DNA from: Verrucomicrobiaceae bacterium
GTDB lineage: Bacteria > Verrucomicrobiota > Verrucomicrobiia > Verrucomicrobiales > Verrucomicrobiaceae
NCBI GenBank assembly: GCA_027489965.1
Contig: JAIXZA010000006.1
Span: 53,313-117,312, forward strand
Length of the DNA stretch: 64,000 nt
Direction: 5' to 3'
The notes below the pieces were generated by a model. That model was not told the DNA's origin. It worked only from the letters and a program-made list of their open reading frames with translations, and searched no databases. Position 1 is the stretch's first letter. The number at the start of each line of letters is the position of its first letter. Below are positions 34,669 to 35,135 of this stretch, in pieces. The position numbers and the translations under genes were made by a program.

Positions 34669-34733
34669 AAGGTGAAGGCCGCGCATTGCTGCACGGCCTT
34701 CATTTGGTAGCGGGGACAGGATTTGAACCTGTG
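34669..34733 (-). repeat. Direct repeat copy B (tRNA 3' end + terminator hairpin)
   Basis: 65 bp matching 35023..35087 with one difference (C at 34682 vs T at 35036). Confidence 0.9.
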
Positions 34734-34765
34734 GTCCCGCACGCGGGATTATGAGCCTGACGAGC
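34705..34765 (-). pseudogene. Partial initiator tRNA-Met remnant
   Basis: tggtagcggggacaggatttgaacctgtg and ttatgagcctgacgagc match the tRNA at 35059..35135; the segment between is replaced by gTCCCGCACGCGGGA. Confidence 0.8.
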
Positions 34766-35015
34766 GTGAGCTTCGCGGTATACCGATGTGACGATAAAAG
34801 CCATCGCCACCTTTTTGAGCTTTGAGAAAATTCTCCAACTGTCGAGCTTCCTTCAGATTCATCTGGGCACTCGTCCAAACCAGATGCCAGGGGCCTCGAT
34901 GGCGCGTCCAAGTGGATATCCCTGTGTTGTGGTCGGTTAATCGCTTTTCGATATCCTCCGAAAGCCCAATGTAGAACCTATCTTGTTCATTTTTGATTAC
35001 ATAGACCTGATACAT
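34749..35015 (-). CDS. Single-domain GIY-YIG endonuclease
   Basis: MYQVYVIKNEQDRFYIGLSEDIEKRLTDHNTG...WTRHRGPWHLVW...LKEARQLENFLKAQKGGDGFYRHIGIP; stop codon falls in the tRNA remnant. Confidence 0.85.
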   Translation of the reverse strand: MYQVYVIKNEQDRFYIGLSEDIEKRLTDHNTGISTWTRHRGPWHLVWTSAQMNLKEARQLENFLKAQKGGDGFYRHIGIPRSSRSSGS

Positions 35016-35022
35016 TGCAGGA

Positions 35023-35087
35023 AAGGTGAAGGCCGTGCATTGCTGCACGGCCTTCATTTGGTAGCGGGGACAGGATTTGAACCTGTG
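35023..35087 (-). repeat. Direct repeat copy A (overlaps tRNA-fMet 3' end)
   Basis: 65 bp matching 34669..34733; includes hairpin AAGGCCGTGCA-ttgc-TGCACGGCCTT. Confidence 0.9.
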
Positions 35088-35135
35088 ACCTTCAGGTTAT
35101 GAGCCTGACGAGCTACCGGGCTGCTCCACCCCGCG
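35059..35135 (-). tRNA. Initiator tRNA-Met (CAT)
   Basis: CGCGGGGTGGAGCAGCCCGGTAGCTCGTCAGGCTCATAACCTGAAGGTCACAGGTTCAAATCCTGTCCCCGCTACCA; unpaired 1:72, GG/CC in lower anticodon stem, encoded CCA. Confidence 0.93.

Follow-up and report, generated by a model that had tools for sequence, protein, structure and literature searches.

A GIY-YIG nuclease gene between an initiator tRNA gene and a palindrome-scarred tRNA remnant: a candidate minimal mobile cassette in Verrucomicrobiota and other bacteria

SegB of phage T6, a GIY-YIG enzyme encoded beside tRNA genes, cuts inside tRNA genes at the motif RAWTSGAAC and drives the formation of tandem tRNA plus segB repeats through recombination (PMC13096335). 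On the opposite strand this motif reads GTTCSAWTY, a T-loop sequence, a reading that is ours and not that of the cited paper. In the mitochondria of fungi (Allomyces and Glomus), endonuclease ORFs termed mORFs insert at the 3' part of a gene and bring their own copy of that part, the native 3' part being displaced downstream, where it matches the empty relative (PMC3630166). Transfer RNA genes are also flanked by integrative elements and prophages with tyrosine integrases, which leave an intact and a partial tRNA at their two ends (see PMC9897764 on tRNA fragments), and bacterial tRNA genes harbor group I introns with homing endonuclease ORFs (cf. PMC3984707). Small tandem cassettes, each with a foldable end site, are furthermore known from integron gene-cassette arrays.

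Within the stretch of DNA analyzed here (64,000 nucleotides; hereafter the window), a unit of only about 350 bases was identified directly 3' of the initiator tRNA gene (tRNA-fMet), comprising the following features:

35059..35135, minus: intact initiator tRNA-Met(CAT), the anchor of the unit (ARAGORN; Rfam tRNA, 63 bits)
35023..35087, minus: proximal copy of the 65-bp repeat, with T-arm, acceptor 3' end and terminator
35027..35056, minus: proximal terminator hairpin with 13-bp perfect arms
34749..35015, minus: single-domain GIY-YIG nuclease gene, 88 aa plus stop (Pfam PF01541; alignment)
34749..34765, minus: tRNA D-arm/anticodon remnant GCTCGTCAGGCTCATAA, encoding SSGS and the TAA stop
34749..34756, minus: remnant core GCTCATAA
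34735..34748, minus: palindrome H, 14 nt, TCCCGCGTGCGGGA, conserved and covarying
34721..34727, minus: remnant T-loop TTCAAAT, the putative junction of unit and host sequence (basis: T-stem mosaics at other loci)
34669..34733, minus: distal copy of the 65-bp repeat, with T-arm, acceptor end and terminator
34673..34702, minus: distal terminator hairpin

The two 65-bp copies (34669..34733 and 35023..35087) differ by one mismatch. A separate exact 17-bp repeat, TTATGAGCCTGACGAGC, is shared by positions 34749..34765 and 35097..35113, and palindrome H stands between the two remnant pieces in place of CCTGAAGG, the 3' anticodon strand and variable loop of the intact tRNA. Given the length of the 65-bp repeat and the recurrence of the arrangement in dozens of species, chance is excluded. 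The nuclease ORF ends in TCG TCA GGC TCA TAA (SSGS*), which is the remnant D-arm/anticodon-loop segment itself; upstream, its frame stays open to an ATG at 35057 within the terminator stem, and homology begins at 35015. The initial annotation of this locus had reported a single-domain GIY-YIG ORF directly 3' of tRNA-fMet, a flanking 65-bp direct repeat with the tRNA 3' end and terminator, and a distal D-arm/anticodon segment supplying the last residues and stop codon of the nuclease; each of these was borne out, the first by PF01541 and ARAGORN and the last by the final codons of the ORF. The palindrome, the arrays, the T-loop junction and the versions at other tRNAs described below go beyond it. 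Elsewhere in the window, 35344-39972 encodes, divergently from the tRNA, a repetitive protein of 1542 aa that has a bacterial Ig domain (PF17963) and is probably a surface protein. The remnant and terminator (34675-34753) also show a sub-threshold Rfam match (28.8 versus 37 bits) to isrJ, a Salmonella sRNA that is possibly itself similar to a tRNA 3' end plus terminator.

Like SegB, a free-standing homing endonuclease of the tRNA regions of phages T4 and T6, the window nuclease is a GIY-YIG protein encoded beside a tRNA gene. SegB is phage-borne, whereas the window protein is a single 88-aa domain that found no match in PHROG at E<=0.01 or in phage records at 1e-5, and its unit is chromosomal, with a duplicated tRNA 3' half and a palindrome. 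With the mORFs it shares the restore-and-displace layout, in that the distal end, and not the proximal one, has a variant and a flank in common with an empty relative; the mORFs occupy mitochondrial protein genes, unlike the bacterial chromosomal tRNA gene concerned here, and the palindrome, tandem arrays and ORF-less cassettes are the present unit's own. As in integrase elements, an intact and a partial tRNA flank the unit, and the tRNA 3' end is directly repeated at its borders over 65 bp. Such elements measure kilobases rather than ~350 bp, however, and the remnant here has anticodon-loop sequence and a palindrome; a tRNA-targeted integrase element was rejected on finding only the GIY-YIG ORF, and no integrase, in the interval between the repeats. 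A group I intron would likewise bring a homing-type nuclease to a tRNA gene, and was rejected on two grounds: the tRNA gene is uninterrupted, with the ORF outside it, and the Rfam matches in 34500..35400, taken up to E=1, include no group I family. The tandem cassettes with foldable ends recall integron arrays, but here there is no IntI and no attC, and the site is a tRNA half. Our search of the open PMC literature found no account of this bacterial unit.

Orphan genes for single-domain GIY-YIG proteins are frequent in bacteria. The 88-aa ORF matches PF01541 with E=1.7e-13, and its homologue alignment retains the Y, YIG, R and E residues of the GIY-YIG nuclease superfamily (Y5, Y15, G17, R25 and E61 invariant); relatives of solved structure are UPF0213 (1ywl/1zg2) and SLX1. 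Values of dN/dS between 0.08 and 0.28 in unsaturated ORF pairs indicate that the ORF is under purifying selection.

The unit recurs at one tRNA in many lineages. Among 388 genomes of the phylum, the closest homologues of the ORF (45-66% identity) are nearly all encoded directly behind tRNA-fMet; closer still, at 72% identity, is a copy in Brevifollis gellanilyticus (G005, locus L101), also behind tRNA-fMet. In front of this copy stands a unit with an internal deletion, which fuses MYFVYV to RSSGA*, and behind it, where the contig ends, a further remnant. A scan of 84,980 species genomes (one genome per species, most loci being MAG contigs, with tRNAs called by ARAGORN and features by pattern search) yielded 80 named loci, in 56 of which tRNA-Met(CAT) lies upstream on the same strand and in 2 more just downstream. 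Hosts include Verrucomicrobiota of many classes, Kiritimatiellota and Lentisphaerota, together with single records each from Abawacabacteria, Patescibacteria, Armatimonadota and Acidobacteriota. The initial annotation had inferred the insertion, at the tRNA, of a mobile or homing-like unit that duplicated part of this tRNA. This is supported by the placement of nearly all close relatives beside tRNA-fMet with a duplicated 3' end, rather than apart from any such duplication, the arrangement that it had held to be incompatible with its reading.

Other GIY-YIG genes near RNA genes were also observed. The window's own genome has three single-domain GIY-YIG genes beside tRNAs (Met, Leu and Ser). 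At the second, tRNA-Leu(CAA) is followed by a gene of another subfamily (L001:1501-1885), present in L034 too, and no remnant was found; at the third, tRNA-Ser(TGA) is followed by a gene flanked by the near-identical repeat TTTTACCGCCCAGCTwCGArTGGCrCG (L002:323-835), whose distal copy apparently falls on the end of the following, convergent gene. In many of the genus's genomes (L014, L017, L021, L022, L023, L025, L030, L032, L036), another GIY-YIG gene is encoded ~0.6 kb away from tRNA-Gln(CTG) and on the other strand. Single-domain genes directly 3' of tmRNA genes occur at L020:1048-1704 and L095:977-1734, the latter flanked by a long direct repeat. At L010:1465-2048, a GIY-YIG gene with 43% identity to the window ORF directly precedes a frame that weakly resembles tyrosine recombinases (PF00589, below cut-off), and possibly interrupts a gene similar to integron integrases; downstream there are two copies of a 28-bp repeat, AGCCACGTGACCGAAGGTTTTACGTGGC.

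Comparison of the tRNA-fMet loci revealed a fixed order of intact tRNA, terminator, ORF and remnant. The remnant in turn reads GCTCATAA (the anticodon loop plus one base), H, (T/C)C, the host's T-arm, the acceptor end and, usually, the terminator. The annotation's view that the nuclease reads into a tRNA remnant is supported well beyond the window, the ORF stop being the TAA of the anticodon loop in 50 of the 59 loci with a remnant. H is a 6-bp palindrome, TCC[C/G]GC..GC[C/G]GGA, and takes the place of both the 3' anticodon strand and the variable loop; it folds as a hairpin in DNA form, all six pairs are standard in 43 aligned remnants, and one pair changes from C-G to G-C in 7 sequences. An origin of H from a genome-wide REP element was rejected for the window's genome, where H is not an abundant repeat (4 matches versus 2 in a reversed-pattern control). 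Some relatives (G039, G040) do show an enrichment of REP-like copies, and such copies are located in the T-loop of some remnants.

Several further palindromes were encountered in these loci. REP-like palindromes (e.g. GTCCCGCGACCGCGGGAT) are inserted in the remnant T-loop or acceptor end in unrelated families, at L120:3241, L165:1382, L086, L163:3265, L151, L158 and L159. A direct tRNA-fMet 5' half joined to the palindrome (A-H) lies upstream of the tRNA in L126 and L145, and L145 also has, downstream of 3264 and behind the ORF, an inverted copy of this A-H arrangement. Some matches to the T-arm pattern, with identical TCCCGCGCAAGCGGGACGGGG strings within one family, were left out of the counts as probable variable arms of normal class II tRNAs.

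Denoting the intact tRNA as T, the ORF as O and the remnant as R, 29 loci have the form TOR; TOROR, TORROROR (L115), TRROR (L154) and TRRROR (L113) were also found. The unit thus forms tandem arrays as well as ORF-less derivatives, the latter being tandem cassettes of 60 bp in L113 and of 99 bp in L154. From these, the remnant plus H is the part that is kept and, as H persists even in ORF-less cassettes, we infer that it is a cis-acting unit end, marking the remnant as non-tRNA so that it is either not recut or recognized as the unit's own end. Several contigs break off at the repeats, which is the outcome expected when repeated sequence is assembled.

Occupied and empty alleles of a single site, as known for homing endonuclease elements, were identified where tRNA-fMet lies next to a polyprenyl synthetase gene (PF00348). 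At this syntenic locus within one genus, the comparison of sites with and without the unit that the initial annotation had proposed shows the window occupied, Brevifollis (G005) with an array, G003 with a solo remnant and G024 empty. The window's distal end carries the terminator variant GCAATGCGCGG and a downstream flank, both of which it has in common with the empty site (G024/L062), and is therefore the old one: on the basis of this one terminator substitution and the flank, it is read as the 3' end that the tRNA gene originally had in the chromosome. The proximal end has the variant GCAATGCACGG, unlike the empty-site relative, and would have come with the unit to become the functional 3' end of the tRNA gene. 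The unit leaves an intact tRNA upstream and the displaced original 3' end downstream; of the two copies, the distal one alone is changed, through the palindrome. Since an intact tRNA is restored beside the unit, the locus can be fitted to the textbook homing cycle, where the target is destroyed by insertion, only under an additional assumption.

Across 43 loci, the distal 33 nt match their own genome's tRNA at 31.3 positions on average, versus 25.6 for the tRNAs of other species, and the own tRNA is the best or tied match in 37. Differences from it in the distal T-stem number 23 in the 5' strand and 8 in the 3' strand, versus 0 mismatches in intact copies. The excess lies on the 5' side in 8 loci and on the 3' side in 1 (sign test about 0.04; 7 versus 1 and about 0.07 without the REP-disrupted L165). 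In addition, the first remnant of the L113 array is a mosaic, with element-type GCAGG before the T-loop and host-type CCTAC after it. In these few loci, the pattern points to the T-loop as a junction or switch point between unit and host sequence.

We interpret the unit as a minimal mobile tRNA-fMet cassette that encodes a nuclease directed at tRNA genes and owes its spread and amplification to tRNA-homology repair, a reading to which we assign a probability of roughly 60%. One unit would consist of a tRNA 3' part (usually with terminator), the GIY-YIG ORF, and the anticodon-loop piece with H. The nuclease would break tRNA-fMet genes, probably in the vicinity of the T-loop, much as SegB cuts the tRNA genes of phages, and repair through the tRNA sequence shared with the unit would introduce a copy of the unit. 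The tRNA 3' half brought along by the unit would restore the tRNA gene and push the old 3' half downstream, and later breaks and recombination between repeats may amplify, shrink or remove units. Several considerations weigh against this reading. With an intact tRNA-fMet in the donor, a gene-specific nuclease would cut its own locus too; gene conversion by itself could explain why both tRNA ends (C and C') agree with the host; the T-loop asymmetry is drawn from few loci, 8 versus 1; the ORF is too short for a resolved tree, and thus for proof of transfer, and transfer to Patescibacteria rests on MAG contigs. Sequence searches of phages, viral contigs and plasmids also found no copy of the unit.

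The escape of the intact tRNA would be accounted for if H itself were the cut site. The GIY-YIG protein would then cut its own unit at GCTCATAA-H and never an intact tRNA without H; units would be freed or amplified by tRNA-repeat recombination and, as circles or fragments, would enter new tRNA genes through the host's ordinary homologous recombination at the tRNA 3' half common to both. The palindromic, conserved and covarying nature of H, its retention in ORF-less cassettes and the arrays are all compatible with such a scheme, but spread to foreign genomes would rest on short homology only and the T-loop mosaics are less directly explained, and we regard it as unlikely. We find it quite unlikely that a single ancient insertion behind tRNA-fMet was inherited vertically and is now immobile, with gene conversion keeping similarity and frequent loss through the 65-bp repeats. 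Distal and proximal ends do match within each genome, clean loss by repeat recombination would yield exactly the empty sites found, and host labels on the ORF tree group somewhat by class; the Abawacabacteria sequence, however, falls inside the Verrucomicrobiota set on that tree, the T-stem of L154 is unlike its own tRNA, similar palindromes occur at other tRNAs, and purifying selection has lasted despite patchy presence. Finally, the remnant transcript might be a functional RNA: the tRNA-like 3' half (T-arm plus acceptor) at the end of the ORF mRNA would be a substrate of tRNA-processing enzymes and would control the nuclease or the tRNA. This would draw on the weak isrJ similarity, below the gathering score, and on a window RNA fold in which the 3' arm of H and the acceptor end pair into a T-arm/acceptor minihelix, but this minihelix was rejected as a conserved structure, being forbidden by CCGGC/GCCGG palindromes (e.g. 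L108) that allow the H hairpin, and the mismatched T-stems of several remnants are unlike a selected RNA. We regard this explanation as highly improbable.

Returning to the proposed tRNA-cutting cassette, related arrangements were found at other tRNAs, where an H-type palindrome replaces all or part of the anticodon arm in a second tRNA copy beside GIY-YIG genes. These comprise Thr (L090, L091, L204), Asn (L093) and Pro (L088, L094, L097, L099) versions; L091 has three tandem ORFs and a TAG stop supplied by a D-arm piece, and L205 has the Thr form with no GIY-YIG gene detected. In part of these loci, and in the fMet loci L105 and L119, the scarred copy is a 5' half upstream of the intact gene. 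The Thr-type pattern gave 2 matches versus 0 control matches in 338 genomes. It is possible, if short of probable, that all belong to an undescribed class of minimal mobile cassettes at bacterial tRNA genes, combining a single-domain GIY-YIG nuclease with a tRNA half scarred by a TCCCG..CGGGA palindrome, T-loop-to-T-loop boundaries, tandem arrays, non-autonomous cassettes of 60-100 bp, and versions for fMet, Thr, Asn and Pro.

These results tie one GIY-YIG subfamily to a specific habitat and provide it with unit boundaries, a cis element and a life cycle that can be tested. To our knowledge, the unit lies in the smallest size range of nuclease-bearing mobile units. It would extend SegB-type tRNA-cutting nucleases from phages to chromosomes and would give a bacterial counterpart of the fungal mORFs, and it may account for a class of partial tRNAs and contig breaks beside initiator tRNA genes. 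It also raises the question of how a genome tolerates a nuclease aimed at its own initiator tRNA gene.
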